A stretch of DNA of 23,750 nt, taken from the IMG/VR virus record IMGVR_UViG_3300020203_000236, positions 1 through 23,750 of that record; one strand, given 5' to 3'. A program made the position numbers and the translations under genes. The notes under the pieces were generated by a model. The model worked only from the letters and a program-made list of their open reading frames with translations, did no database searches and was not told the origin of the DNA. Positions 2 to 23,393 of this stretch are shown piece by piece. Each line of letters begins with the position of its first letter. The stretch's first letter is position 1. Source of the DNA: a virus.

Positions 2-856
2 TATCACGCGGACCTCCACGCCGTGGTGGATGCGCTCGGTACGCCGGACAACCTGACCGCGGCCAAGCTGCACATCCCGGACGCCATCCTCGACTGGTGC
101 GACACGATCATCGTCCATCACTTCGAGCACACGTGGCTGGTTCCCCAGTGGGACCGCATCAAGCACAAGCGCGTCATCTGGCGCACGGTCGGTCAGTCCG
201 TCGAAGGCAACGAGATGATGATGGCTCCGCTGCACAAGGCGGGGATGCAGATCGTCCGCTACTCGCCCAAGGAACGGAACATCCCAGGGTATGCCGGTGA
301 GGATGCCCTGATCCGGTTCTACAAAGACCCCGACGAATGGAGGGGCTGGACGGGCCAGCACCCGACCGTCATCAACTTCACCCAACACCTGCGCCAGCGT
401 GAGCCGTACACCAACTGGTCCTTCTGGGACCGGGCCACGCTCGGGCTATCGCGCATCCCGATGGGACCGGGTTCGGAGGCCATCGGCGGTACCGGCGAGA
501 TGTCCCTAGAGATGATGCAGGAGGCGTTGCGCGTCCACCGGGCGTACCTCTACACCGGCACCCAACCGGCGAGCTACACCCTGGGTCTCATCGAAGCCAT
601 GATGACCGGCATCCCCGTGGTCAGCATCGGGCCGAAGTGGATGGGCATATTCCCCTACGGCCCCGACCTGTTTGAGGGTCAGGAGATCGCCGGGGTTTGG
701 CAGCACGAGACGCCGATGGAAGCCCGCGCGGCGCTGAACGCACTGCTGACCAGCCACACCTACGCGCAGCACATCAGCGACCTCCAGCGCGCTCGGGCTA
801 TCGAGCTATTCGGCAAGGCCGCCATCGGGGCGCAGTGGAAGGCGTTCCTCGGATGA
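2..856 (+). CDS. Glycosyltransferase-like protein, 5' partial
   Basis: The frame is open to the left edge of the window, so the true start probably lies outside; the first internal starts are GTG codons at 23 and 26. The C-terminal part reads like the nucleotide-sugar half of a GT-B glycosyltransferase: around 568-630 is a stretch with core GLIEAMMTGIPVVSIG, the usual Glu-containing, Gly-Pro-rich donor-site segment. The front half (HHFEHTWLVPQWDRI) looks like the end of an acceptor-side Rossmann domain. The stop overlaps the next start as ATGA. The role is inferred as sugar transfer onto a phage or host target; donor and acceptor are unknown. It could also be an inactive GT-fold protein. Confidence 0.7.
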   Translation, partial: YHADLHAVVDALGTPDNLTAAKLHIPDAILDWCDTIIVHHFEHTWLVPQWDRIKHKRVIWRTVGQSVEGNEMMMAPLHKAGMQIVRYSPKERNIPGYAGEDALIRFYKDPDEWRGWTGQHPTVINFTQHLRQREPYTNWSFWDRATLGLSRIPMGPGSEAIGGTGEMSLEMMQEALRVHRAYLYTGTQPASYTLGLIEAMMTGIPVVSIGPKWMGIFPYGPDLFEGQEIAGVWQHETPMEARAALNALLTSHTYAQHISDLQRARAIELFGKAAIGAQWKAFLG

Positions 857-1056
857 GGGTGCTGTACCACGCCGAGATCAAGTACTCATGGCCGCCCGGC
901 CGTGAGGACGTGGATATGGAGATGGAAGTCGCAGACCTCCCTCCGCTCATCCAGCGCAACCTTCGGAACGGCGAGTCGATCGAGTCGATGTACGGCGAGT
1001 TCTATCACTGGGAAGCCATCGGTATCGACATGTGGTACTGGGTGCTTCCGCTGTGA
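853..1056 (+). CDS. Small hypothetical protein (67 aa)
   Basis: The product is not recognised. The ATG at 853 overlaps the upstream stop by four bases (ATGA) and its own stop overlaps the GTG of the next gene (GTGA), so it is locked into the glycosyltransferase operon. The protein is acidic in its middle part and aromatic-rich at the end (FYHWEAIGIDMWYWVLPL), with no membrane segment or metal-binding cysteines. A longer reading of the same frame starting further upstream would lie inside the previous gene and is not needed. Its place between two glycosyltransferase genes suggests an accessory role there, but this is inference only. Confidence 0.65.
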   Translation: MRVLYHAEIKYSWPPGREDVDMEMEVADLPPLIQRNLRNGESIESMYGEFYHWEAIGIDMWYWVLPL

Positions 1057-2048
1057 ACGTCCTGATCGACCGCCACCATCACGACCTCTTCAATAGCCTG
1101 TTGGTCCTGTTCGAGGATCGCCTCGGCCATACCGTCTACACGCCGGTCGGCCACGAGTGGTGGGAAGAAGGCTACTGGCGCTTTGGCGAGGGCTACGGCG
1201 ACGACCGCCTCGCCCGCCAGTTCCTGAACCTCGCCGGCTGGCAGATTCTTGACGACGGCACCTACCTATCGGCCGACCCCCACCGCCCGCGACGCGCCAT
1301 CCGTGGCGTAAACGTGGCCGCTGCCAAGTCCCGCGGCTGGGCCTATGTCGTCGCCACGGTGCAGGACAACCAGCGCGGGTTCCACCGGCTGGCATCCGAC
1401 CTCAACGCCAAGTACGTCCTCCAGGTCGGCAACACCAACCAGTCCGTAGATTGGGGCCTCGACCCGCTAGCGCTCGTCAGTTCCGAGGTTCCGATCCGGG
1501 GACGGGGCATCCTCTATCACCAGGAGTTCGACGCCGAAGGGGTCTTCGGTTACACGAAGCCGCCAGCGCCGACCGCTCCGATCCGTTCCTTCGTCAACTG
1601 TTTCGGCTCCACCCCCTGCCAACGCGTCTTTGACGAGGTACGGGCGATGCTGCCGGACCGGACGTTCACCAGTCACGGCATCGACGGCCCCGATGGGAAC
1701 GTCGAGACGGTCGCCGATATCGCCCGACTCATGCGCGAGAGCGCGTGGGGCTGGCACGACAAGGTGCAGGGCGACGGGTTCGGCCACGTCATCCACGACT
1801 GGGCGGCCATCGGGCGGCCCCTTATCGGGCACGCGGCGCACTACCGCGACCTCATGGCGGAACCGTTCTGGGTGGACGGCGTGACGTGCATAGACCTCGA
1901 CAAGCATACGACCACGGAAGTCGCCGAGCGTCTGCGAACGATCACGGCTGACGAGCATCTGGCGATGTGCCGGGCCATCCGCGCCGTCTTCGATGAACAC
2001 GTCGACTTCGCCGCCGAAGCCGAGCGCATCCGGGAGTTCCTGTCGTGA
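1053..2048 (+). CDS. Glycosyltransferase-like protein (331 aa)
   Basis: The protein begins MNVLIDRHHHDLFNSL and resembles the GT-B-like proteins common in uncultured tailed phages, with an aromatic N-terminal part (GHEWWEEGYWRFGEGYGDDRLARQFL). The C-terminal half has a donor-site-like stretch (GHVIHDWAAIGRPLIGHAAHY, about 1783-1845) where a Glu-rich loop would be expected in GT4 enzymes; here the acidic residue is Asp. The GTG at 1053, overlapping the previous stop, is preferred to the GTG at 1032 because of the regular four-base coupling. Its stop overlaps the next GTG. Family assignment is by recall of overall pattern; activity and substrate are unknown. Confidence 0.65.
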   Translation: MNVLIDRHHHDLFNSLLVLFEDRLGHTVYTPVGHEWWEEGYWRFGEGYGDDRLARQFLNLAGWQILDDGTYLSADPHRPRRAIRGVNVAAAKSRGWAYVVATVQDNQRGFHRLASDLNAKYVLQVGNTNQSVDWGLDPLALVSSEVPIRGRGILYHQEFDAEGVFGYTKPPAPTAPIRSFVNCFGSTPCQRVFDEVRAMLPDRTFTSHGIDGPDGNVETVADIARLMRESAWGWHDKVQGDGFGHVIHDWAAIGRPLIGHAAHYRDLMAEPFWVDGVTCIDLDKHTTTEVAERLRTITADEHLAMCRAIRAVFDEHVDFAAEAERIREFLS

Positions 2049-3253
2049 GGATCCTGTTCATCGGCGATGCCGCCGCCACGGGCTTCGGGACGGTCACGGC
2101 TGACCTTGGCCGGGCGCTGCTCGACCTCGGCGAGGATGTCCGGTTCCTCTCGCAGAACGCGACTGGGTTCGTCATCCCCGAGCCGTTGGGCAGTCGCACC
2201 TACCGCCTACGGGACGATGCGAGACCCGAGATGGTGCTAGCCGCCCTGACCGGTGAGGGGATGCCTGACAAGTGGGCACCCGAGGCCATCATCGTCCTTG
2301 GCGATTACTTCGCGGCTCGCTGGATCGTCGTCGATGCCGGCGTCCAGGCGGCGCTCCGGGCGGTCACGAGTTTCCACTACGTGCCAATCGAGGGCGTCGG
2401 CCTCCCGCTCGGCTGGAAGGGCCTGTGGGACATCGTCAAGCCGGTCGCCATGACGCACTTCGGGGCGGGCGAGATCGCCAAGGTCGTCGGATACGAGCCG
2501 CCGATGGTCTATCACGGCGTGGACCAGAGCGTGTTCTATCCGCTGGCCTCCAACCGGCCATCCGCGCACGTCAACGATGACGGCTCGCGCAGCACGTCGA
2601 AGCGCTCGGCCAAGCAGAGTTTCGGCATGGACCCTGACCGGATCGTCCTGTTGCGGACAGATCGACACATGCCGCGCAAGCAATACAACCTCATGCTGCG
2701 GGCGCTGGTGCCGGTCATGGAGCGCAACCCGCTGGTCGATGTGGTCCTGCATTGCCGGGTCCACGACCAAGGCGGGTTCCTGATGGACACCCTTTCCAAG
2801 TTCAGTGACGACTTCCGTAGCCGGGTGATGCTCACGCTGGCCCACGACTCGTGGCAGGGCCTGTCGCGGGAAGAGCTGAACCAGCTTTACAACGCCGCCG
2901 ACATCTACATCCAGAACAGCGCCGAGGGCTTCGGCCTGACGGTCGCCGAGGCGATCGCGTGCGGCGTCCCCGCGGTGGGCATCGACTACTCCGCGGTCCC
3001 CGAAGTCACCGGCCCGGCTGGGCTGACGGCCAAGGTCAGTCACCTGATCGACAACGAATACGATCATATGTGGGCCTGCATCGATCCGGTCGACTGGGCT
3101 GAGAAGGTCGAATACCTGGTACGGCATCCGTCCAAGCGACGCGCTCTCGGGGCTGCCGGTCCCGCCCACGTCAAAGCCAACTTCTCATGGGTCCGGGCTG
3201 CCGAGCAGTTCCGCGACCTTGTGCATTCCGCAACTATCGAGGTAGCCGCGTGA
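2045..3253 (+). CDS. Glycosyltransferase family 4-like protein (402 aa)
   Basis: This is a GT-B-fold glycosyltransferase of the GT4/GT1 type. The N-terminus (MRILFIGDAAATGFGTVTADLGRAL) is the first Rossmann strand and glycine loop. The C-terminal signature is clear at about 2890-2985: AADIYIQNSAEGFGLTVAEA with a following GVPAVG, which holds the E-x7-E pair that binds the nucleotide sugar. VLLRTDRHMPRKQYNLMLRA (about 2645-2705) matches the segment after the interdomain linker. The start is a GTG overlapping the previous stop, and the stop overlaps the start of the head-tail connector gene, so it is translated with virion genes. The likely role is sugar transfer onto a virion protein or a nascent glycan; the target is not shown by the sequence. 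Confidence 0.85.
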   Translation: MRILFIGDAAATGFGTVTADLGRALLDLGEDVRFLSQNATGFVIPEPLGSRTYRLRDDARPEMVLAALTGEGMPDKWAPEAIIVLGDYFAARWIVVDAGVQAALRAVTSFHYVPIEGVGLPLGWKGLWDIVKPVAMTHFGAGEIAKVVGYEPPMVYHGVDQSVFYPLASNRPSAHVNDDGSRSTSKRSAKQSFGMDPDRIVLLRTDRHMPRKQYNLMLRALVPVMERNPLVDVVLHCRVHDQGGFLMDTLSKFSDDFRSRVMLTLAHDSWQGLSREELNQLYNAADIYIQNSAEGFGLTVAEAIACGVPAVGIDYSAVPEVTGPAGLTAKVSHLIDNEYDHMWACIDPVDWAEKVEYLVRHPSKRRALGAAGPAHVKANFSWVRAAEQFRDLVHSATIEVAA

Positions 3254-3903
3254 GTCAGTTCGCCACCGCGCAGGAGCTGCGTGACTTCCTCGACATCGCG
3301 TCCACCACCGGGCGGGCGACCACGGCCAACCTGAACCTGCTGCTGACGGCCGCGTCCGACTTCATGGAGCGGGCTACCGGGCGGATCATCACGTCCAGCG
3401 CGTCCAACACCGTTCGCACGTTCAGCACGGACGGCAGGGATGCCATCACCATCCCGGACCTGCGCACGGTGTCAAACATCACGCAACAGGGCTCGGCGCT
3501 GTCGGCGGATAGCACGTACTACCTGCTCCCATCCCGCCAGCAACCGGAGGCGGGCTCGACCGTCTACACGGGCGTCCAGCTTCGGGCCTTCGGGACATAC
3601 GACTACCGATCCAACCCGGAATGGTTCGACCGCAACCTCGACTCCCCGTACTGGTCGATGCGCCGAAACGGCCTGCCCAACGATCTCATCATCACGGGCC
3701 TGTGGGGCTGGACATCGGTCCCGTCACAGTGGAAGTTCACGTCCCTGATCCTGGCGGGGTTTTACTACAAACGGCCCGACTCGCTACTGGCGAACACGGC
3801 CGTCACGCCGGACGGCAACTTACTCGACTTCGGGGTTCTGCCGCTGGAAGTGACCTCCCATATCGACCAGTGGCGGCTTACTGACCACGTGGCGACCCTC
3901 TGA
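3250..3903 (+). CDS. Head-tail connector protein (gp6-like)
   Basis: The 217-aa protein begins MSQFATAQELRDFLDIASTT, followed by helices with an FMERATGRII segment, the pattern of small head-tail connector proteins (HK97 gp6 / SPP1 gp15 type) that form a ring below the portal. The C-terminal part (LILAGFYYKRPD) is also typical. The GTG at 3250 overlaps the stop of the GT4 gene. The upstream in-frame GTG at 3187 would add residues lying inside that gene and is rejected. It is followed by neck and tail-terminator genes with one-base overlaps, the standard order portal - capsid - connector - neck - terminator - tube. Confidence 0.75.
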   Translation: MSQFATAQELRDFLDIASTTGRATTANLNLLLTAASDFMERATGRIITSSASNTVRTFSTDGRDAITIPDLRTVSNITQQGSALSADSTYYLLPSRQQPEAGSTVYTGVQLRAFGTYDYRSNPEWFDRNLDSPYWSMRRNGLPNDLIITGLWGWTSVPSQWKFTSLILAGFYYKRPDSLLANTAVTPDGNLLDFGVLPLEVTSHIDQWRLTDHVATL

Positions 3904-8607: not shown

Positions 8608-10419
8608 ATGGCACCCGTCTATAAGTTCCGCTCCCCGGCCGGTGTCATCTCCGATATCACGACGTACTTCCGCCTCTACAAGCTGGACGTGGCGACCAAC
8701 GCCGAGGAAGGGACGGTCGCCCAATCGAGCATCCAGGCCGACGACCCGACCGGCGCGTTCGATATCGTCGGGCACCGCATCTTTGAGGTCCTGGAAGACA
8801 CGGCGACCGGCTCAAACACGCAGATCTATGTCGGGTATACCGCTGGTCGGCGCATCTCTCGGGGCGACTATCACCGGACCTCAGCGGGGCGCGTCTGGGA
8901 CATCGACCTCGTAGACATCAACTCCGTCCTATCGCGGCGGGTGATGACCGGGACCGACGCCAACCGGCCCGCGGAGACGGACGTTGCGCGCGTCCAATGG
9001 CTCATGACGACCAACGAAGCCGCGATCATTGTCGACTCGCTGTACCTGAACACGTCGGGCGGGATTGCGATGGACGCGGCCGACTACCGCGGTCAGAAGT
9101 TCAACCAAGTGTTGGACGACTGCGCCCAGGCATCGGGCAAGAACCATTTTGTCTGGTCCCGTCACGAGACGGGCAACTTCTCCCTCTGGTACGACTTCGC
9201 CACCAGCACGAACTACACGTCGCCGCTGCGGCTGTCCAACGTTTCGACCGATGTTGATTCCGTCCTGACGTTCGCCCTGAGCAATGACACCGAACTGTCG
9301 CGCTCGCCGGATCGGGTCAACTCGGGTGCGTATCTGCCCTTCGACGGTGGCGCGGTCTATTCGCAGGACGTCGCCATCGCCAACTCCTTCGCCCGGCGCG
9401 ATGCGGTCATGCCTTCGGAGAACGTCAAGACTTCAGCAAAGGCGACGGCGCGGGCGACCCGCTACCTCACGGAGATGTCCACCGAAGAGGACGTCATCAC
9501 GACCACCGTCCAGCTTCCGGCGGCCAAGGTCAACTTTCTGATGCAGGGGATGCGCGTCCAACTGAGGGCATCGCATCTACCGGGCTACGAGTCCTTCTCG
9601 TGGGGCCGGGTGCTCAATCGGTCGGTCCAGCAAGTCTCCGAAGAGCTATATGACGTCAAGCTGGAGATATCGCCATCCTCGTCTGTCGCGGGCGACGACA
9701 TCCTGATCGCGTTCATCACGCGTAGCCAGACCGACACCGGGATTGTTCCGACGGACCTCTCGACGAACGGCTGGACCAAGGCGTTCTGGTCAGGCAACTT
9801 CGCGGACCCGGCGCAGTCAGCCGGACCGGGCGGAGCCGTCGCCATGGGCATCTGGTATCGCCGCGTCGTTCCCGGTGAATCCGCAACCGTGCTCCAAGTT
9901 GGTGGGGCCAATCCGGGGACCAATGCGGCGTGGGTATTCCAGACGACCGGCGCATTGCTGGCGGGCATCGCGACCAGCAACGCCAATGACAGCGTGACGT
10001 GGGTCGGCAACCCGACCGCTTCCACCGTCGCCAGTGCATCGGCCGCCGTCGCGAGCGTGTGGTTCGGCGGCTTCAGCTTGCAGAAAGTCAACTACGGCCA
10101 GGTGACGCTCATCACGTCCACCAACGGTACGAACCTCATCGACGCCAACGCGTCGAACGTGTCGGGCGGAGTCTGCGCGGTGACAGCCGATAGCGCCCAG
10201 CCCCGGACGTGGATCGGCCACCGTAGCGGGACGGGCGTCCTGACCATCGGCGGCAACCTCACGTGCTCGGGTGCATCGCCTGACTACAACCTATTCGGGA
10301 GAGGGCGCGGCGGGCTGCTCCTGCCGCTCGCGACCGGGGCCACGTTCGCCGTGTCGCAGCAGGGGTTCCACTCCACTGCGGGCGCAGATATCATCGTCAC
10401 GCTCCCGGCCGCGCCATGA
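8608..10419 (+). CDS. Tail-tip / baseplate hub-like protein with C-terminal beta domain
   Basis: The 603-aa protein begins directly after the tape measure stop (TAG-ATG). The first ~350 residues (VISDITTYFRLYKLDVATNAEEG; later FNQVLDDCAQASGKNHFVWS and VQLPAAKVNFLMQGMRVQL) follow the pattern of hub-like tail-tip proteins that bind the end of the tube. The remainder, from about residue 355, is Gly/Thr/Ser-rich beta sequence (DDILIAFITRSQTDTG, WVFQTTGALLAGIAT) with the look of a jelly-roll adhesin or carbohydrate-binding domain. It is the only candidate here for both the distal tail and tail-associated protein roles. The stop overlaps the next ATG. The assignment is by position and composition. 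Confidence 0.65.
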   Translation: MAPVYKFRSPAGVISDITTYFRLYKLDVATNAEEGTVAQSSIQADDPTGAFDIVGHRIFEVLEDTATGSNTQIYVGYTAGRRISRGDYHRTSAGRVWDIDLVDINSVLSRRVMTGTDANRPAETDVARVQWLMTTNEAAIIVDSLYLNTSGGIAMDAADYRGQKFNQVLDDCAQASGKNHFVWSRHETGNFSLWYDFATSTNYTSPLRLSNVSTDVDSVLTFALSNDTELSRSPDRVNSGAYLPFDGGAVYSQDVAIANSFARRDAVMPSENVKTSAKATARATRYLTEMSTEEDVITTTVQLPAAKVNFLMQGMRVQLRASHLPGYESFSWGRVLNRSVQQVSEELYDVKLEISPSSSVAGDDILIAFITRSQTDTGIVPTDLSTNGWTKAFWSGNFADPAQSAGPGGAVAMGIWYRRVVPGESATVLQVGGANPGTNAAWVFQTTGALLAGIATSNANDSVTWVGNPTASTVASASAAVASVWFGGFSLQKVNYGQVTLITSTNGTNLIDANASNVSGGVCAVTADSAQPRTWIGHRSGTGVLTIGGNLTCSGASPDYNLFGRGRGGLLLPLATGATFAVSQQGFHSTAGADIIVTLPAAP

Positions 10420-11237
10420 AGGTAACCCGTCTCGGCCCGACGAAGGTGCTCGTGGGCGCTACCTCGCTGGGCGGCTCCGGTGGCACGCTGGACCCCGCGG
10501 TTGGCTCTGGGCTGGTGCCTACGGCCAGCGGCTCCAACTCGTGGTCCTGGGGTAGCAACGTCGCCCGCATCACGGCCAACGGTTCCAACGGGCTGCTCGG
10601 TCCGTTCGTCAACTTCGCGTCGGGGACGGGTATTACGCTGGCGGTGTCATCGAACACCATGACCATCACGTCCGGGGGCGCGGTGGGCGATTTCGTGACC
10701 ACGACGGCCGGTGGCGGGGAGGTCCTGTCAACGGTCGCGGCGTCGGGTGCGACGGAGACGATCGACCTCGCCACGGCCAACGTCCACGACATCACGCTGA
10801 CCGCCAACTGCGTCTTCACGTTCGCCGCGGTGTCGTCCGGGCGCTCGCGGTCGTTCACGCTGCTGCTCCGCCAGGACGGCACGGGCTCGCGGCTGGCGAC
10901 GTGGCCGGGGTCGGTCGTGTGGCCGGGTGGGGTTGCGCCGACGCTCGCGACCGCGGCGTGGGCGGTGGATGTGTTCGCGTTCTTCACGCTGGACGGCGGG
11001 GCCGTCTGGTACGGCTTCCCCACGGGCGGCTCAGGGGCGACAGGGGCTGCGGGTGGCGATCTGTCGGGCACCTACCCGAACCCGAGCGTGGTGGATGACT
11101 CGCACGCGCACACCGCGGCCACGCTGCCGACGGCGGGTGGCGAGATCCTCATCAGCGACACGCCAGCGGGTAGCCCGCTCATCTTCGCTGACCTCATCCA
11201 GAACGAGGCGCAAGACGACCTCGTTTACAGCGACTAG
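10416..11237 (+). CDS. Tail fibre / appendage-like structural protein (273 aa)
   Basis: This is a Gly/Thr/Ser/Ala-rich protein with alternating beta-strand pattern. At about residues 203-225 it carries a short collagen-like turn (GSGATGAAG) followed by GDLSGTYPNPSV, a motif that recurs in phage tail-fibre and host-recognition proteins. The C-terminal end (HTAATLPTAGGEILISDTPAG) is also fibre-like. It overlaps the upstream stop by ATGA and is followed by two further appendage-type genes. The role is inferred as part of the adsorption apparatus; no enzymatic motif is seen. Confidence 0.65.
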   Translation: MKVTRLGPTKVLVGATSLGGSGGTLDPAVGSGLVPTASGSNSWSWGSNVARITANGSNGLLGPFVNFASGTGITLAVSSNTMTITSGGAVGDFVTTTAGGGEVLSTVAASGATETIDLATANVHDITLTANCVFTFAAVSSGRSRSFTLLLRQDGTGSRLATWPGSVVWPGGVAPTLATAAWAVDVFAFFTLDGGAVWYGFPTGGSGATGAAGGDLSGTYPNPSVVDDSHAHTAATLPTAGGEILISDTPAGSPLIFADLIQNEAQDDLVYSD

Positions 11238-11246
11238 GAGCACGTC

Positions 11247-12008
11247 ATGTCTAAAGCCAGCGATAACGTCTTCCCCAGGTTCCTCATCTCCGAGGGCGGC
11301 TCGACGGCCACGCCCGCCGCTAACCGGGTCACGGTCTACGCCAAGGCCAATGGGCTGCTCTACTCCAAGGACGACGCGGGCGCCGAAACGGCCCTTGGTG
11401 GCGGCTCGGGCTCCGTCGCCACCGACGCCATCTGGGACGCGGCGGGCGACCTCGCGGTCGGCACGGGCGTGGACACCGCGGCTCGGCTTGCCAGGGGTAC
11501 GGCGCTCCAAGTGCTGCGCGTCAACTCGGGCGCGACGACGGTGGAATGGGCCGCGGCGGCTGCGGCCGCCTTTGTCGGGTGCTCAGCGTGGAACTCAGCC
11601 GCGCAGTCTGTGAACAACACCACCTGGACGATCCTGACCTTCGACTCCGAGAACTTCGACACCAGCGCCATCCACTCGACCGGGGCCAACACGGGCCGGA
11701 TGACGATCCCGTCAGGCATGGGCGGCTACTGGCGCTTCACCGCCTACGTCCAGTTCGCGGGTAATACGACGGGGCTCCGCGCCATCGACCTCTACAAGAA
11801 CGGCGTCTCGGTCGGCCCGATGGTGCGCGTTGGCAGCCCGCCGACGACGAATGACGTGTTCACGCTGACGCTCAACTCAGTCTTGAGTCTCGTTGCTACC
11901 GACTACATCGAACTCTATGCCTACCAGGCATCCGGCGGGGCGTTGAACGTCGGCAACGCATCGCAGCCACAGGGCACGCTCTATATCGCTCAGTACCTCG
12001 GCGCCTGA
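11247..12008 (+). CDS. Tail appendage protein with C1q-like C-terminal fold (253 aa)
   Basis: The start codon has an AGGAG ribosome binding site at 11236-11240 that overlaps the stop of the previous gene. Residues 1-105 are a low-complexity linker (LLYSKDDAGAETALGGGSGS; ALQVLRVNSGATTVEW). Residues 110-253 look like a C1q/TNF-type jelly roll: AWNSAAQSVNNTTWTILTF, GYWRFTAYVQFAGNT, RAIDLYKNGVSVGP, then DYIELYAYQASGGALNV and the final strand TLYIAQYLGA. Such trimeric domains are common at the ends of phage fibres and bind surface sugars or proteins. The fold call is by eye. Confidence 0.7.
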   Translation: MSKASDNVFPRFLISEGGSTATPAANRVTVYAKANGLLYSKDDAGAETALGGGSGSVATDAIWDAAGDLAVGTGVDTAARLARGTALQVLRVNSGATTVEWAAAAAAAFVGCSAWNSAAQSVNNTTWTILTFDSENFDTSAIHSTGANTGRMTIPSGMGGYWRFTAYVQFAGNTTGLRAIDLYKNGVSVGPMVRVGSPPTTNDVFTLTLNSVLSLVATDYIELYAYQASGGALNVGNASQPQGTLYIAQYLGA

Positions 12009-12009
12009 T

Positions 12010-12984
12010 GTGCTGGCCCACAGGCTGCTCATCGCCGGCGGCGGCTCATCCTCGTTCAGCCCAGGAGAACCCGTGATCTTCCACGGCTGCATCGCGGCGG
12101 GACTGGACCGGTTTGTAGGAACCGTCTCCAAGACCTCGGGCAGCGGCACGATCACAGGTTCCGGGACAGCGTTCCTGACCGCGGTCAAGATCGGATACAA
12201 GCTGCACATCCCAGGTGGCGCGGTTGATGAGTTCGACCTGTACGTCACGGCCATAGCCAGCGACACGAGCCTGACCGTCTCGCCTGCTCCCACCAGCACG
12301 GCCAGCGGACAGTTGTGCGAACCGGACCAGGAGATCGGCAACGCCACGTTCACCCCGGTCAAGTACGAGTACGACCGGCTGATCCACAGCTCGCTGCTGG
12401 GGGTCTACGACACAGACAACTATCACTACAGTTCGTCAGCCAACCTCACGGGCACGGTCGCCAAGACCAGCGGCAACACGACGATCACCGGCACCGGCAC
12501 AGCCTTCCTCACGGGAGTCGCGGTCAACCAGGTCATCGACGTTCCGGGCGGCGGCGGTACGGACACGCTGGTCATCCGCACCATCGCCAGCGACACGAGC
12601 CTGACGGTGTGGCGTGCGCCGTCGTACACCGCGTCCGGACAGACGGCGAAAAACAACCCGGCGGCCATCGCCATCCCGATCGGTCTCGGCGGTTACTACG
12701 ACATCGGCATCGAAGACGACTGGCGGTACGGGATCGGCACCGTGCGTCAGGGCAACGTCTTCCTCAACCTGTCCACCGGAGTCGCGGCCACACCGGGCGC
12801 GGCACTTGGCGGCGTGAACATGCCGCGGGTTCCCACGAGTGGCGAGACGGCCTACAAGTGGGCCGCACCGCGGAAACTGGCGGAGGGAGACTTCATCGTC
12901 AATCGGGCCTACCAGGACTCGGGGAGTTCCGTGTCACAGACGCCCTACTATGCGATGTGGGTCAGCTACCGGGGGCCGGTGTGA
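12010..12984 (+). CDS. Tail appendage protein with internal duplication (324 aa)
   Basis: Two copies of a ~65-residue beta module are visible: the first begins near residue 37 (GTVSKTSGSGTITGSGTAFL), the second near residue 148 (GTVAKTSGNTTITGTGTAFL), each ending in IASDTSLTV followed by TASGQ. The duplication also shows in DNA (around 12255-12275 and 12588-12610). The C-terminal third (GGYYDIGIEDDWRYGIGT, YYAMWVSYRGPV) is unique. The GTG at 12010 is one base after the previous stop but lacks a ribosome binding site; an in-frame GTG at 12073 has AGGAG (12063-12067) five bases upstream and would give 303 aa. Either start may be used. It is a structural or adsorption protein by context. Confidence 0.65.
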   Translation: MLAHRLLIAGGGSSSFSPGEPVIFHGCIAAGLDRFVGTVSKTSGSGTITGSGTAFLTAVKIGYKLHIPGGAVDEFDLYVTAIASDTSLTVSPAPTSTASGQLCEPDQEIGNATFTPVKYEYDRLIHSSLLGVYDTDNYHYSSSANLTGTVAKTSGNTTITGTGTAFLTGVAVNQVIDVPGGGGTDTLVIRTIASDTSLTVWRAPSYTASGQTAKNNPAAIAIPIGLGGYYDIGIEDDWRYGIGTVRQGNVFLNLSTGVAATPGAALGGVNMPRVPTSGETAYKWAAPRKLAEGDFIVNRAYQDSGSSVSQTPYYAMWVSYRGPV

Positions 12985-13238: not shown

Positions 13239-13496
13239 TCAGGCGAACGGCTCGCCGCAGTGGTTGCAGAGGCGTTCGCGGTCCTGAGCGACGATCTTGC
13301 CGCAGTTGACGCACACGCGTCCCTGACGAGCCACCACGCCGGGTTTCGCCATGGCAGCGCCGATCAGCCCTATCGGCCCCAGAAGGAACCCCACGACACC
13401 GGCGGACCCCGCATCGTCGCGGCCTTTCTGGGCAGTGATGAGGTACGCCCCGATACCACAGATGAGCCAGACGGCCAAGACTGCGTAGACCTCCAT
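13239..13496 (-). CDS. Small membrane protein with C-terminal zinc ribbon (85 aa)
   Basis: Two hydrophobic segments at residues 4-21 (YAVLAVWLICGIGAYLI) and about 31-50 (SAGVVGFLLGPIGLIGAAMA) are joined by a charged loop (AQKGRDD). A zinc ribbon follows with C62/C65 (CVNC) and C77/C80 (CNHC). The start at 13496 is backed by GGAGGT eight bases upstream. It lies downstream of, and on the same strand as, the repressor gene, so it may be expressed in lysogens. The type (two membrane spans plus zinc ribbon) is common in high-GC bacteria. A superinfection-exclusion or lysogenic-conversion role is possible but only inferred. Confidence 0.8.
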   Translation of the reverse strand: MEVYAVLAVWLICGIGAYLITAQKGRDDAGSAGVVGFLLGPIGLIGAAMAKPGVVARQGRVCVNCGKIVAQDRERLCNHCGEPFA

Positions 13497-13504
13497 CGAC
13501 CCCT

Positions 13505-13510
13505 ACCTCC
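13505..13510 (-). promoter_or_regulatory. Shine-Dalgarno deciding the start of the leftward membrane protein
   Basis: GGAGGT on the minus strand lies eight bases before the ATG at 13496. It fixes that start codon and supports the ORF being real, as the plus-strand reading of the same stretch has no such site. Confidence 0.75.
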
Positions 13511-13577
13511 GGCTTCCCGTAGTTCGTTGTTGAGTCGCAGCTAAGCGCACGTCCCTACCCTCTCCTGTTGAGAGTCA

Positions 13578-13784
13578 ATGACCGACTCCCAGCCGGCCGT
13601 GGCTCTGGAAACACTACAGGGAGCCATCGTGGCCGATATCAACGTCCCGATCCCGTTGTCTCGCGAGGAACAGGCGGGGCTGCTCGTGCTGCGAGGTCTT
13701 GTTCGACTAGGCGTGCTACGACCGCCTCCACCCCGTGGGTCCAAGCCTCCCGCTCGCGACGCATCTCGGCCAGCTCAGCCGTAA
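13578..13784 (+). CDS. Doubtful small ORF overlapping the repressor 3' end (68 aa)
   Basis: The first ~36 residues have protein-like composition and high third-position GC (MTDSQPAVALETLQGAIVAD, then PLSREEQAGLLVLRGL). The second half falls inside the repressor gene on the other strand (from 13639), loses the codon bias and becomes Pro/Arg-rich. Only GAGAG at 13570-13574 could serve as a ribosome binding site, at a short distance. It is either a small gene convergent with the repressor that ends within it, or a chance frame. Confidence 0.3.
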   Translation: MTDSQPAVALETLQGAIVADINVPIPLSREEQAGLLVLRGLVRLGVLRPPPPRGSKPPARDASRPAQP

Positions 13785-14049
13785 GGGCGCGGATCGCACC
13801 GGCGAGGTCGTCGGGGGGCGCGGAGTCGGCCTGCTCCACGAAGGGGCCAAAGAAGCGCTCTAACAGCGGTAGGTGGCGCTTGCTCGGAGCCTTGGTGCCC
13901 GCCTCGTATTCGGCATAGGTGCTCTTCGCGATCTCGATGCCGGCGGTTAGCAGGGCCTGGCGCGCCTTCTCAGCCGTAGCGAGGTTACGGTCTAGGCGAG
14001 AGGCGACGAGCCAACGGCCGTAGGGACCGCGCTCGCTGGGGGACTTCAT
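13639..14049 (-). CDS. XRE-type (CI-like) repressor, 136 aa
   Basis: The N-terminal helix-turn-helix region is readable: ATAEKARQALLTAGIEIAKS, then TYAEYEAGTKAPSKRHLPLL, which matches the XRE pattern (recognition helix TYAEYEAGTKAP, then the helix-5 segment). The C-terminal half is a helical, coiled-coil-like part (AIRALTAELAEMRREREAW), possibly for dimer formation; no LexA-like peptidase motif is seen. The ATG at 14049 is chosen over the one at 14097 because the longer form would cover the operator and promoter at 14059-14087. It is divergent from a Cro-like gene, with three palindromic operators between. It probably keeps early genes silent in lysogens and controls its own promoter. Confidence 0.8.
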   Translation of the reverse strand: MKSPSERGPYGRWLVASRLDRNLATAEKARQALLTAGIEIAKSTYAEYEAGTKAPSKRHLPLLERFFGPFVEQADSAPPDDLAGAIRALTAELAEMRREREAWTHGVEAVVARLVEQDLAARAAPPVPRETTGSGR

Positions 14050-14058
14050 GGCTGCGCG

Positions 14059-14087
14059 ACAGTGACCTTTGTCGCGACTTTTGTCAA
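14059..14087 (-). promoter_or_regulatory. Candidate leftward (repressor) promoter
   Basis: On the minus strand, TTGACA (14087-14082) is a perfect -35. A 17-base spacer leads to CACTGT (14064-14059) as a weak -10. The predicted start point is about 14052, only two or three bases before the repressor ATG at 14049, so the mRNA would be almost leaderless. The palindrome at 14071-14078 fills the spacer. Confidence 0.55.
14071..14078. promoter_or_regulatory. Operator 1, GTCGCGAC palindrome
   Basis: This is a perfect eight-base palindrome flanked by T and A runs (TTTGTCGCGACTTT). It lies between -35 and -10 of the leftward promoter candidate. It is identical in core to the copies at 14114 and 14144, so it is the likely binding site of the repressor or Cro-like protein. 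Confidence 0.75.
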
Positions 14088-14113
14088 TACCCTGCACGAC
14101 ACCACAAGATAAT

Positions 14114-14121
14114 GTCGCGAC
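14114..14121. promoter_or_regulatory. Operator 2, GTCGCGAC palindrome
   Basis: This is the middle copy (AATGTCGCGACTTC), 43 bases after operator 1 and 30 bases before operator 3. It directly follows a GATAAT element (14108-14113) that could be a -10 on either strand, though no good -35 fits. It may bridge the two outer sites for cooperative binding. Confidence 0.7.
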
Positions 14122-14134
14122 TTCGCGAGACCTC

Positions 14135-14163
14135 TTGACTTTTGTCGCGACATCGGCGAAACT
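14135..14163 (+). promoter_or_regulatory. Candidate rightward (early) promoter
   Basis: TTGACT at 14135-14140, a 17-base spacer, and GAAACT at 14158-14163 form a promoter candidate with a good -35 and a weak -10. The predicted start point falls at about 14170, the A of the Cro-like gene's ATG, giving a leaderless mRNA. Operator 3 lies in the spacer, three bases after the -35, the same spacing as on the leftward side. Confidence 0.55.
14144..14151. promoter_or_regulatory. Operator 3, GTCGCGAC palindrome
   Basis: This is the third exact copy (TTTGTCGCGACATC), placed in the spacer of the rightward promoter candidate. Binding here would block early transcription. A weaker match (CTCGCGACTTTTGG, near 14330) lies inside the Cro-like gene and may be a chance relative. 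Confidence 0.75.
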
Positions 14164-14169
14164 CCGGAC

Positions 14170-14373
14170 ATGCCAACCACCGGACTGGACCTTCGCCTAG
14201 AGCGGGTCGCCGCAAGAGTGAAACTGATCGCCCTGGCCGAAGCCATGAAGCGCGATCGACGAACGGTTGCACGATACGAGGGCCTCGCCGTCGTTGATCC
14301 GGGGGTGGTCAACGAGTACCGCGAGTCGCTCGCGACTTTTGGCGATATCGAAACAACGGCAGACGTCGCGTGA
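14170..14373 (+). CDS. Cro-like small DNA-binding protein (67 aa)
   Basis: This short basic protein has a helix-turn-helix-like core: LERVAARVKLIALAEAMKRD then RRTVARYEGL. Its place, divergent from the XRE repressor and first in the rightward early operon, is that of Cro. No Shine-Dalgarno precedes the ATG, and the predicted transcription start coincides with it, which suggests leaderless translation. Its stop overlaps the GTG of the HNH gene. It could instead be an excisionase-like or other small regulator. Confidence 0.7.
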   Translation: MPTTGLDLRLERVAARVKLIALAEAMKRDRRTVARYEGLAVVDPGVVNEYRESLATFGDIETTADVA

Positions 14374-16982: not shown

Positions 16983-17968
16983 GCGCGGGGATGCGGGCTC
17001 CAGAGCGGCTGTCGGTCCGTCAAGGCACGGACGAATGGCTCGCCATGCGGAAGACCGGCATCGGATCGTCCGACGCGCCAGTCATCGCCGGGGAGGTTGG
17101 GTCGGTCCTGGAATTGTGGGCCGAGAAGTCCGGTCTCGTGGAAAGGGACCCACCCGACGAGGCCACGGCTCGCCTGTTCGAGTGGGGCCACCGCCTGGAG
17201 CCCGTCGTGGCGGATTGGTACGCCGATGCCACCGGCCGCCAGCTACAGCGAGTCAATCAGATGCTCGCGCACCCCGACGTGCCGTACGCGTTCGCCTCGC
17301 TGGACCGGAAGGTGGTCGGCGAGCGACGCATCGTCGAGATCAAGACGACGCGCTTCGGATGGGCAGGCGGGGAGGACGTGCCGGGTCGGGTCCAGTGCCA
17401 GGTCCAGCATCAGCTATGGGTCACGGGCTACGACGTGGCCGACGTGGCGGTCCTGACCGGCGGCAGTGAACCGAAGGTCTACGAGATCGCCCGCGACGAC
17501 GCGTTCATTGCCGACCTCGCTTTCCTCGAAGCCGAGTTCTGGGGCTGGGTCCAGTCGGGCACCCGACCGCCCGTCGATGGCTCGGAGAATGCCCGCCGCG
17601 TCCTGTCCAAGCTCCACCCACGGAACGACGGGACGTTGATTCCGACCACGCCCGACCTCGATGCCGTCGTGACCGATTGGCTGACCGCCAAGGCCGCCGT
17701 GAAGGAAGCCGAGGCGACCGAGGGGACGTTGGCGAACACCATCCGCGCCCTGATCGGTGATGCAGACGGCATCGAAGGACGCGTGACGTGGCGCAAGAAC
17801 GCCGACACGAGCCGAGTCAACTGGCCGGCCGTCGCCAAGGCATACCGGGTCCTGCTAGATGAGGAGTACGGCCACACCCGTTGCGAAGACCTCGACGCCG
17901 TCGAGTCCATCCATTCAACCACCGTCGAGGGACCGCGCGTCCTTCGACCTGTTGGAGGCAAGCAATGA
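16979..17968 (+). CDS. YqaJ-type phage recombination exonuclease (329 aa)
   Basis: This lambda-exonuclease-like PD-(D/E)XK nuclease degrades one strand of double-stranded ends to give 3' single strands for the annealing protein next door. Visible family signs: RQGTDEWLAMRKTGIGSSDA (residues 14-33), EWGHRLEPVVADWY (E68, E74), and the catalytic core D109 (FASLDRK) with E120-x-K122 (IVEIKTT), then QVQHQLWVTG (Q144). The C-terminal ~110 residues are a helical extension. The GTG start overlaps the upstream stop; its own stop overlaps the Bet ATG. Confidence 0.92.
   Translation: MSAGMRAPERLSVRQGTDEWLAMRKTGIGSSDAPVIAGEVGSVLELWAEKSGLVERDPPDEATARLFEWGHRLEPVVADWYADATGRQLQRVNQMLAHPDVPYAFASLDRKVVGERRIVEIKTTRFGWAGGEDVPGRVQCQVQHQLWVTGYDVADVAVLTGGSEPKVYEIARDDAFIADLAFLEAEFWGWVQSGTRPPVDGSENARRVLSKLHPRNDGTLIPTTPDLDAVVTDWLTAKAAVKEAEATEGTLANTIRALIGDADGIEGRVTWRKNADTSRVNWPAVAKAYRVLLDEEYGHTRCEDLDAVESIHSTTVEGPRVLRPVGGKQ
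17954..17958 (+). promoter_or_regulatory. Shine-Dalgarno for the Bet-like gene
   Basis: GGAGG lies six bases before the ATG at 17965 and inside the end of the exonuclease gene. It decides this start over an in-frame upstream one at 17881. Confidence 0.7.
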
Positions 17969-18888
17969 CCGAAGAGTTCGCGCTCACCACCACGGATTCC
18001 ATCGACCCCGACATCAGCGCCGCGATGACCGTCTACGAACGGCTCCAGCCGTTGCAGGACGCGCTCGGGCTGTCCAAGCTGACCGTTCAGGAGATGCAGC
18101 TGTTCGCGATGGTCGCCCACCACACCGGGCTGGATCCGTTCACGAAGCAGATCTACGCCATCAAGCGCAACGGCAAGGTCAACCACCAGACGGGCATCGA
18201 CGGCTACCGCTCGACGGCCGAGCGAACGGGCCAGTACCGCGGATCGGATGCGCCCGAGTTCGAGGCGTGCGAATGCGGAGACAGCGGCTCGCCGACGCCT
18301 CACCCGCGCATCGCCCGCGTCACGGTCTACCGCGCCTATCCGGACGGCATCCGGCCCCAGGTCGGCGACGCGCGCTGGCACGAACTGAAGCCAAAGCACA
18401 CGAAGGGCGAATACAGCTACGCCGACGATATGTGGTGGCAGATGCCTGAGAACCAGCTTGCCAAGTGCGCCGAGGCCAACGGGCTGCGCAAGGCGTTTCC
18501 GCGGGTCCTCGGTGGCGTCTACATCTCCGACGAGATGGAACAGGCCGGGCCACCGGAGAATGCTCCCTTGGTCGCTGCCGCTGCCCAGCCGACCGCTCGC
18601 GAACGGATCGCGGCACGACGCCAAGCGTTGGAGGTCACGGAGCCACAGGAAGCCGCCACGGTCGCGCCAGAAGCCACGGAGACGCCCGCAGAGGCACAGG
18701 ACACCGGTACGGGGCCGGTCGACGTACAGGCGGCTGCTGAGGCCATCTTCCGAGAGGATGCCCTGTGCGGCTGGCGAGTCGAGACGAAGGTGGGCCTCGT
18801 CGATTGCACCCTCGCGGAGATGCACGAGGGACAGCATTCCTGGCACGACGCCGCCATCAAGGACGGCGGCAAGGTCGTCCGCCCATGA
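17965..18888 (+). CDS. Single-strand annealing protein, Bet/RecT family, with C-terminal finger
   Basis: The protein has 307 aa, and residues ~35-185 carry the Bet signature: GLDPFTKQIYAIKRNGKVNH (residues 55-74), QTGIDGYRSTAERTGQYRG, later WWQMPENQLAKCAEANGLRK (157-176) and AFPRVLGGVYISDEM. It binds the single strands made by the upstream exonuclease and anneals them to homologous DNA. After a Pro/Ala/Glu-rich linker (about 200-260) comes an extra C268-x12-C281-x5-H287-x3-H291 element, not part of the core family. The gene overlaps both neighbours. Confidence 0.92.
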   Translation: MTEEFALTTTDSIDPDISAAMTVYERLQPLQDALGLSKLTVQEMQLFAMVAHHTGLDPFTKQIYAIKRNGKVNHQTGIDGYRSTAERTGQYRGSDAPEFEACECGDSGSPTPHPRIARVTVYRAYPDGIRPQVGDARWHELKPKHTKGEYSYADDMWWQMPENQLAKCAEANGLRKAFPRVLGGVYISDEMEQAGPPENAPLVAAAAQPTARERIAARRQALEVTEPQEAATVAPEATETPAEAQDTGTGPVDVQAAAEAIFREDALCGWRVETKVGLVDCTLAEMHEGQHSWHDAAIKDGGKVVRP

Positions 18889-19175
18889 AGGCCACCGACG
18901 CCCTGCGGATCGCGCTTGTTCGCATCCCGCCCCCGGCTGACTTCGATGCGTACCACGCGGCGGTGATGGCGTCTCTCGACGAACAGGGCTACCTCATCCT
19001 CGCCCGCGACGCCTACGAACTGCTGGCCAAGGTAGCCGAGTCCGCGTTGGTGCCGACCGGCGAGCATCGCCTTATCAACGGCTACTGCCCGGACTGTCAG
19101 GGCGGATGCATGTTGGGCTTCGGCGCTGAGGAAGTGCAGTACGTCGAACCGTCGCCGATTGAGCCGAAGCCATGA
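18885..19175 (+). CDS. Small protein with Cys cluster (96 aa)
   Basis: The ATG overlaps the Bet stop. The first 60 residues are helical (DALRIALVRIPPPADFDAYH, AVMASLDEQGYLILARDAYE); a Cys cluster follows (C68, C71, C75: CPDCQGGC), then an acidic Pro-rich end. It is not recognised as a family. The position next to Bet suggests a recombination or replication accessory role, which is only inference. The longer in-frame start at 18765 would lie inside the Bet gene. Confidence 0.6.
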   Translation: MKATDALRIALVRIPPPADFDAYHAAVMASLDEQGYLILARDAYELLAKVAESALVPTGEHRLINGYCPDCQGGCMLGFGAEEVQYVEPSPIEPKP

Positions 19176-19453
19176 AAGCTGGCCTCTGGGAAGCCGTGAT
19201 GCTCAGAGACGGCGGATGTGTCCTGCACCACCTGGAGCCCGGCCACGTCTGCCGGACCGTCTGGGGAACCGAGCATCCGTGGGACGCAATCGACATGCTC
19301 ACGACGGAACACGTGAAGTCGGACCTCCGCATGGGCGTCCGGGCGTCCGACGACATGGGCTTCCTCGTTGCCCTGTGTGGAGCCGCCAATAACCGACCGC
19401 CGACGAAGGTGCAGCGCGGCCTCTTCCGTGAGTACCTAGCGATGACGGCATGA
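19172..19453 (+). CDS. HNH-like nuclease-fold protein (93 aa)
   Basis: Begins MKAGLWEAVMLRDGGCVLHH with C16 and C27 (CRTVWG), then LTTEHVKSDLRMGVRASDDM, where E46-H47 matches the first His of small actinophage HNH-like proteins, and LVALCG (C69). Relatives usually carry one or two His after this Cys; here the stretch reads AANNRPPTKVQRGLFREYLA, with N73-N74 but no His. So the fold looks right, but the active site may be altered. It overlaps the upstream stop (ATGA). The distance of 16 bases to the next start is one of the few gaps here. Confidence 0.65.
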   Translation: MKAGLWEAVMLRDGGCVLHHLEPGHVCRTVWGTEHPWDAIDMLTTEHVKSDLRMGVRASDDMGFLVALCGAANNRPPTKVQRGLFREYLAMTA

Positions 19454-19469
19454 GCGCCGAGCGTAACCT

Positions 19470-22599: not shown

Positions 22600-22923
22600 G
22601 AGCCGCGAACCGAGGCCGGGAAGTGGCTACTTAGGCCGTCCCGCACTCCACACCGCCACTGCTGGCTAGACGGTACCGGCGTGTGCATTGAGTGCGGGAC
22701 GACTAAGGCGTTCCTCCCGGTTGAGCGCGGTATCCAGATGGGAAGACCAACCCTCGCCGAAATCCTCGCCATTGAAGCCGAAGCCGCCACCCCGCCAGCG
22801 CTGGACCGCGAGACGATCCGCAGCGCCCTCAAAGGTGCCCGCGGCCTTGCCTTCGACGAAGGTGAGACGGACCTCGACGCCGAGCTAAAGCGCGCCATCG
22901 ACCTGCTGGACGGGCTGCCGTGA
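22594..22923 (+). CDS. Small zinc-knuckle protein (109 aa)
   Basis: The ATG overlaps the previous stop. A His/Cys metal site is visible near the N-terminus: H20, H22, C23, C31 and C34 (HRHCWLDGTGVCIECG). The C-terminal half is acidic and helical (LAEILAIEAEAATPPALDRE, DAELKRAIDLLDGLP). Its end (DLLDGLP) is similar in type to those of the two repeat-sharing genes. Function is unknown; it may bind a host protein or DNA. Confidence 0.6.
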   Translation: MSEPRTEAGKWLLRPSRTPHRHCWLDGTGVCIECGTTKAFLPVERGIQMGRPTLAEILAIEAEAATPPALDRETIRSALKGARGLAFDEGETDLDAELKRAIDLLDGLP

Positions 22924-23393
22924 CCCGCGCCGCCCTCGTCGTCGTCACGGCGCTGCTCGTCATCGCCGCTACCTCATCGCCGACGGTCCGAACCGGTGCA
23001 ATCCCGGAACGGATCCATTCGTCCATGTCGGCGACCCAAGCCCGCACCGAAGTGCTCGGGGCGATGGTCGGGTCCGTCCTGCTCGGAGGCTGGGCGACCT
23101 GGTACGACGATGGTGACGGTCTGTACGCCGCTGCCGGCCCGGTCCTGCGCGAGGTGCTCGGCGACTGGCGCGGCCAGCGGGTCACGGTCTGCGCCGACGC
23201 CTGTGTCCGCGTCGTGCTCCGTGATTCCTGCGCCTGCGGAGAGCGTCACGGCGACCCGACGCTGCTCGACCTATCGCCCGCCGCGTTCCGCCGCCTGGCC
23301 CCGCTCTCTGCTGGCGTGGCGCGGGTATCCATCGAGGTCGGCGGGCCGCTGATGACCCTGCCGGAAACGGACAGTTTGGAGGAGACGCCATGA
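22920..23393 (+). CDS. Secreted double-psi beta-barrel (RlpA-like) protein (157 aa)
   Basis: Residues 4-17 (AALVVVTALLVIAA) are an N-terminal signal peptide or anchor. Residues ~56-140 look like a double-psi beta barrel of the RlpA/barwin/expansin type: GGWATWYDDGDGLYAAAGP, then RGQRVTVCADACVRVVLRDS with D102 at the place of the catalytic Asp, then LLDLSPAAFRRLAPLSAGVA and RVSIEV. In RlpA this fold cleaves glycan strands of peptidoglycan. Four cysteines (C91, C95, C104, C106) suggest disulfides outside the cytoplasm. The GTG overlaps the previous stop. It is the only cell-wall-acting candidate seen in the window. Confidence 0.75.
   Translation: MTRAALVVVTALLVIAATSSPTVRTGAIPERIHSSMSATQARTEVLGAMVGSVLLGGWATWYDDGDGLYAAAGPVLREVLGDWRGQRVTVCADACVRVVLRDSCACGERHGDPTLLDLSPAAFRRLAPLSAGVARVSIEVGGPLMTLPETDSLEETP
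23378..23384 (+). promoter_or_regulatory. Shine-Dalgarno for the last gene
   Basis: GGAGGAG lies five bases before the ATG at 23390, inside the end of the double-psi barrel gene. Confidence 0.7.

Follow-up and report, generated by a model that had tools for sequence, protein, structure and literature searches.

A probably exported double-psi beta-barrel encoded ahead of lysis and packaging genes in phages that probably infect Chloroflexota

Can a small secreted barrel protein be the only lysis gene of a phage? The question is raised by a gene at the end of the stretch of viral DNA analysed here (the window), which is the whole 23,750-base IMG/VR record IMGVR_UViG_3300020203_000236, of class linear, with incomplete first and last genes. 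The original prediction had described the gene product as a signal-peptide-bearing, RlpA-like double-psi beta-barrel, the only lysis-like gene in view, and bacterial RlpA is described as a lytic transglycosylase in PMC6895207. Our answer is that the picture of a phage with RlpA as its only lysis gene is wrong, and that a testable one takes its place: a barrel family of phages and hosts, restricted to Chloroflexota in a genome scan, whose genes keep a constant position close to lysis genes, among them those of a candidate new papain-like endolysin family. To our knowledge, phage enzymes that open Chloroflexota walls have been little described.

The window is a 23.75-kb piece of a phage of about 40 kb and stops in the gene after the barrel, 0.36 kb past it. 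The absence of an endolysin or holin from it, which was not contradicted by the protein families searched for in the window, means little, because the record is a linear fragment in which no terminase, portal or capsid was found among the annotated proteins. The barrel ORF is a real gene. It overlaps both neighbours by 4 bases in an operon-like arrangement, its product has 58-67% protein identity with its closest relative, and comparison with the gene of L051 (dN 0.40, dS 1.0 over 91 codons) indicates constraint. L002 has only the downstream gene in common with the window and lacks the barrel.

Direct protein searches of GenBank phages, IMG/VR and genome contigs gave no match, and weak phage and plasmid matches at E values up to 10 were treated as chance. 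Relatives were collected with two degenerate patterns. The first (DL....F..LAPLS.G) found 53 IMG/VR stretches; 20 of these and the window protein make up the 21 rows of alignment A1, and the counts leave aside the rest as RlpA-type, 'YAAV'-type, fragmentary, off-frame or doubtful. The second pattern, which fixes DW-C-x-C, found four genome contigs and 23 viral stretches, the latter including 16 new loci. The family thus has 41 members: the window, 20 A1 relatives, 16 new viral loci and 4 genome loci, with L030 and L039 as near-copies within the set. For gene context, genes were called and clustered in 21 barrel-bearing records by a custom script, which made starts too short for some barrels and missed two barrels; G016 was called to base 40,000 of 40,477, that is, without its last 477 bases. 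TerL labels cover clusters 16, 55, 76, 373 and 478, one member of each having been checked by PHROGs, and endolysin searches covered 17 of 23 barrel-bearing records.

The window protein matches Pfam profile PF03330 (DPBB_1) over positions 5-82 of 83 with an E value of 4.5e-6, scoring 27.2 bits against a curated cut-off of 28.8, and 20 of the 21 family rows match it also. An AF2 model built from the 21-row alignment (pLDDT about 88-95 for residues 52-140) has the six-stranded double-psi fold. Foldseek and VIA-align agree that the closest solved folds are domain 1 of expansins (BsEXLX1, the Clavibacter expansin, Ss_EXLX1 and loosenin; VIA-align Z 11.4-12.6), the RlpA-like barrel PA4485 (Z 11.7) and a Streptomyces papain inhibitor (5ntb; Z 10.8). 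The call of an RlpA/expansin-type barrel is borne out, with both RlpA and expansin among the nearest folds. Compared with PDB sequences, the family profile matches 5ntb best (E 6e-10), which has like D-x-C and IDLS...LAPL motifs, although the LAPL portion of this match was imposed by our search pattern.

Kinship with RlpA itself holds for the fold, the PF03330 profile and both Asp positions, but membership is weak. The 157-aa window protein has neither the SPOR domain (only PF03330 was found, and 17 residues follow the barrel) nor the lipobox Cys (the first Cys is residue 91) of RlpA, and the Glu and His of the PA4485-type sequence, which we take to be catalytic, are not conserved in the family according to the 4avr alignment and the A1 columns. 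With expansins, the aligned D...DLS motif is held in common. Counting residues in the alignment with the Clavibacter expansin (4jcw) puts window D117 at D78 and window D102 at D67; 4js7 is, by its title, the structure with D78 mutated. We take D78 to be the equivalent of BsEXLX1 Asp82, and this correspondence, like the mapping of T60, is presumed in part. PMC5072189 treats the D78/Asp82 residue as a mutated functional Asp, and PMC8820737 treats a Vibrio cholerae RlpA Asp mutant as a predicted active-site mutant. D102, which had been singled out as the conserved Asp alongside four cysteines, is indeed present with them and invariant in all 21 A1 rows, as is T/S60, but the functional Asp of expansin and MltA aligns with D117 instead. 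The invariance of D117 and of LAPLS proves nothing, since the first search pattern fixes them. Unlike expansins, the window barrel stands alone, ending where a D2 carbohydrate-binding domain would follow, is predicted to be exported and carries a CxC motif and a PxTD tail, and its target need not be cellulose.

Phage-encoded barrels of this fold have precedents. They include uncultured Caudovirales proteins in BFVD, known here as 'RlpA-like' from their match names, and the lysozyme/RlpA proteins of cyanophages A-1 and N-1 (PMC4916379), which are parts of large proteins (8kea: baseplate initiators), unlike the small window barrel. Other papers report a chitosanase of this fold from a soil virus (PMC9485262) and double-psi barrels as protease inhibitors (PMC7662947, PMC11820871); as a counterpoint to wall activity, the fold serves as a protease inhibitor and as a plant-defence protein. 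Titles and opening lines of abstracts gave no literature on the present family.

The cysteines and the N-terminus point to export. The window barrel has cysteines 91, 95, 104 and 106. In all 41 members the first two occur either as a pair or not at all, though neither search pattern fixes them; a disulfide, and with it an exported protein, would be expected to show this. The C104/C106 pair, by comparison, occurs in 39/41 members, a count biased by the second pattern, which fixes it; among the A1 rows both are found in 19 and neither in two. The window protein passes a hydropathy test for an N-terminal hydrophobic stretch, as 33 of the 41 members do, and the predicted signal peptide is probably right in that the protein is probably exported. 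Of the 41 members, 14 have a PxTD tail after the barrel; among 1020 called proteins only nine have this motif in their last 22 residues, and all nine are barrels of this family. A sortase signal was considered and rejected, as no TM segment lies beyond the tail save in the L035 fusion.

Table 1. Coordinates of features in the window and in related records
Feature	Coordinates	Strand	Basis or remark
Double-psi beta-barrel gene	22920..23393	+	GTG start, 157-aa ORF; profile, model, dN/dS
Preceding small ORF	22681..22923	+	Overlaps barrel gene start
Next gene, truncated at contig end	23390..23749	+	ATG at 23390; one relative with 61% identity, in a record without barrel
N-terminal hydrophobic stretch (residues about 1-20), signal peptide or anchor	22920..22979	+	Sequence, hydropathy
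Double-psi beta-barrel (residues 52-140)	23073..23339	+	AF2 model, fold matches
C91 and C95	23190..23204	+	Both in 22, neither in 19, single in 0 of 41 members
D102-S-C104-A-C106	23223..23237	+	D102 in 21/21 rows; aligned with expansin Asp71-type residue
D117 in LDLS motif	23268..23270	+	Aligned with Clavibacter expansin D78 (presumably BsEXLX1 Asp82, functional Asp)
C-terminal tail LPETDSLEETP	23358..23390	+	[LPA]PxTD tails recur across family
GH25 in G013	17902-18357		2.9 kb past barrel
Second, fused barrel in G014	11518-12294	-	TM and coiled coil; weak Rz-like spanin match
Papain-like peptidase in G003	18650-19462		Family also has members in other records
Papain-like peptidase in G014	9968-10876
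Papain-like peptidase in G020	2610-3428
Papain-like peptidase in G008	2758-3411
Papain-like peptidase in L109	3-497

The structural module of the window is mostly common to seven records (G003, G007, G008, G014, G015, G016 and G020), and 127-base terminal repeats suggest that G003, G009 and G020 are probably complete circles. In relatives the barrel closes the early block, in keeping with the early position originally assigned to it. In all 14 records where TerL is downstream on the same piece, it shares the strand of the barrel and follows it at +1.2 to +9.1 kb. Three further records (G002, G007 and G019) have TerL over 21 kb 'upstream', consistent with a circular map cut open, or with permuted records. 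Several small unknown genes stand between the barrel and the lysis genes in most records. Four records have an integrase-cluster gene 2.7-5.5 kb from the barrel (the cluster was checked on one member), and the window has, at 13239-14373, two small minus-strand genes, one membrane-protein-like, followed by small rightward genes, with the look of an immunity or switch region. On these two grounds the phage may be temperate.

We give about an even chance to the reading that we prefer, in which the barrel is an exported, disulfide-stabilised accessory of expansin/RlpA type that acts on cell-wall glycan in this temperate-looking phage group. It would be produced from the closing part of the early operon, immediately ahead of the genes for lysis and packaging, and would leave the cytoplasm by its predicted N-terminal signal or anchor. 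Its D102/D117 groove would then act on wall glycan strands, which might be loosened or bound uncut in the expansin manner or cleaved in that of MltA and RlpA, and the barrel would supplement rather than replace the endolysin and holin that relatives encode separately. Judged by sequence, the non-cutting mode is slightly favoured over cleavage, because the family retains expansin-type residues and is without those of RlpA.

In a genome collection of 84,980 species the second pattern matched four contigs, all of them from Chloroflexota, two with prophage-like and two with chromosomal surroundings; matches at E 1e-12 were found in 6 of 301 genomes sampled from Chloroflexota. Viral rows and rows from Chloroflexota MAGs interleave in the tree. 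The four contigs and the interleaving suggest a Chloroflexota host, and the phage group probably infects that phylum. Since chromosomal copies lie outside phage contexts, the role of the barrel may be one of general wall biology, and there is a limited but real chance that the gene is a moron or serves lysogeny, being copied from a secreted barrel of the host and changing the host envelope during infection or lysogeny (cell separation, surface change or phage exclusion). The interleaved chromosomal copies, the nearby integrase-cluster genes and the place in the early block all agree with a moron, while the regular placement ahead of lysis and packaging genes, and a spanin-like fused barrel copy that adjoins lysis genes, argue against it.

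Lysis-type genes in the relatives are mostly found between barrel and terminase, the region missing from the window. The absence noted in the window stands, then, but not the idea of a lone lysis gene: that impression arose because the contig is cut just before the region where relatives keep such genes. Besides the barrel, a candidate or known lysis enzyme occurs in 14 of the 17 barrel-bearing records searched. In G016 an Rv2525c-like endolysin (phrog_13480, E 2.8e-37; PF08924) and a 2-TM gene stand directly 5' of the barrel, G013 has a GH25 enzyme, and in G020 a holin (phrog_9752, E 1.5e-21) follows 2.6 kb past the barrel. The second barrel of G014 is fused to a TM segment and a coiled coil with a weak match to Rz-like spanins (phrog_1026, E 6e-4); it scores 31.1 with PF03330, exceeding the 28.8 cut-off, and two genes separate it from a papain-like peptidase. 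In L109, placed in one tree group with the window and L051 (97/81), the barrel, two TM genes and then a papain-like peptidase follow one another within 1.3 kb. Amidase_2, M23, NLPC_P60 and SLT were each found in 0/17 records at the sensitivity used, and in G007, G011 and G018 no GH25, Rv2525c-like or papain-like enzyme was recognised.

The papain-like peptidase family, an undescribed one, is present in 12/17 records, being absent from G013 (with GH25) and G016 (with PF08924), and in 15/301 Chloroflexota genomes. A Cys-His-Asp pattern is almost invariant in it: among 19 rows, of which one is a 35-aa fragment, 18 have the Cys, 18 the His and 17 the Asp. The structural model is weak (mean pLDDT 49), and the best Foldseek match (E 2.5e-3) is a lead, with falcipain, calpains and cathepsins among the first matches; one Chloroflexota relative matches Peptidase_C39 at E 0.039, and the phage members tested gave no Pfam or PHROG peptidase match. 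In G006, G012 and G023 the peptidase lies 5' of the barrel, contrary to a simple cassette. We infer that the peptidase is the endolysin of these phages, and papain-like Cys-His-Asp proteins in lysis position are a candidate new endolysin family. Beside or near the peptidase, G014 (10876-11295) and G002 (26364-26807) encode a secreted-looking protein of 139-147 aa, the G014 copy having a sub-threshold Inhibitor_I36 match (E 0.0099).

A two-part opening of the wall, with the exported expansin-like barrel loosening or trimming glycan before lysis and the papain-like peptidase replacing classical endolysins, seems unlikely to us. Were it true, there would be a phage 'expansin' in an almost unstudied phylum, one version of it anchored in the membrane by a spanin-like fusion.

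That the barrel is a lytic transglycosylase serving as the phage's own lysis enzyme, the literal possibility in the original prediction, we regard as quite improbable. PF03330 does carry the name 'Lytic transglycolase', but the RlpA-type Glu and His are not conserved, and the barrel is not the sole wall enzyme in the lysis slot, as a phage endolysin would be. It co-occurs with three unrelated lysis-enzyme types (GH25 in G013, the Rv2525c-like endolysin in G016 and the papain-like peptidase in 12/17), so it is not the endolysin, and a role as sole lysis enzyme was rejected. The expectation of a role other than final lysis was probably right.

Very unlikely, finally, is a secreted cysteine-protease inhibitor (SPI-like) restraining the phage's papain-like peptidase or a host protease, rejected as a main reading despite the 5ntb match and the frequency of the peptidase, since this phage-encoded family occurs in G013 and G016 with a GH25 or Rv2525c-like enzyme and no such peptidase, part of the match was fixed by our pattern and the peptidase model is weak.

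At the other end of the window, within the structural module and ahead of the head-tail genes, three genes at 2-3253 (clusters 24, 26 and 10) are found again in 5 to 8 of the records compared. The third is a clear group-1 glycosyltransferase, and G003 has a sugar epimerase too at the matching place.
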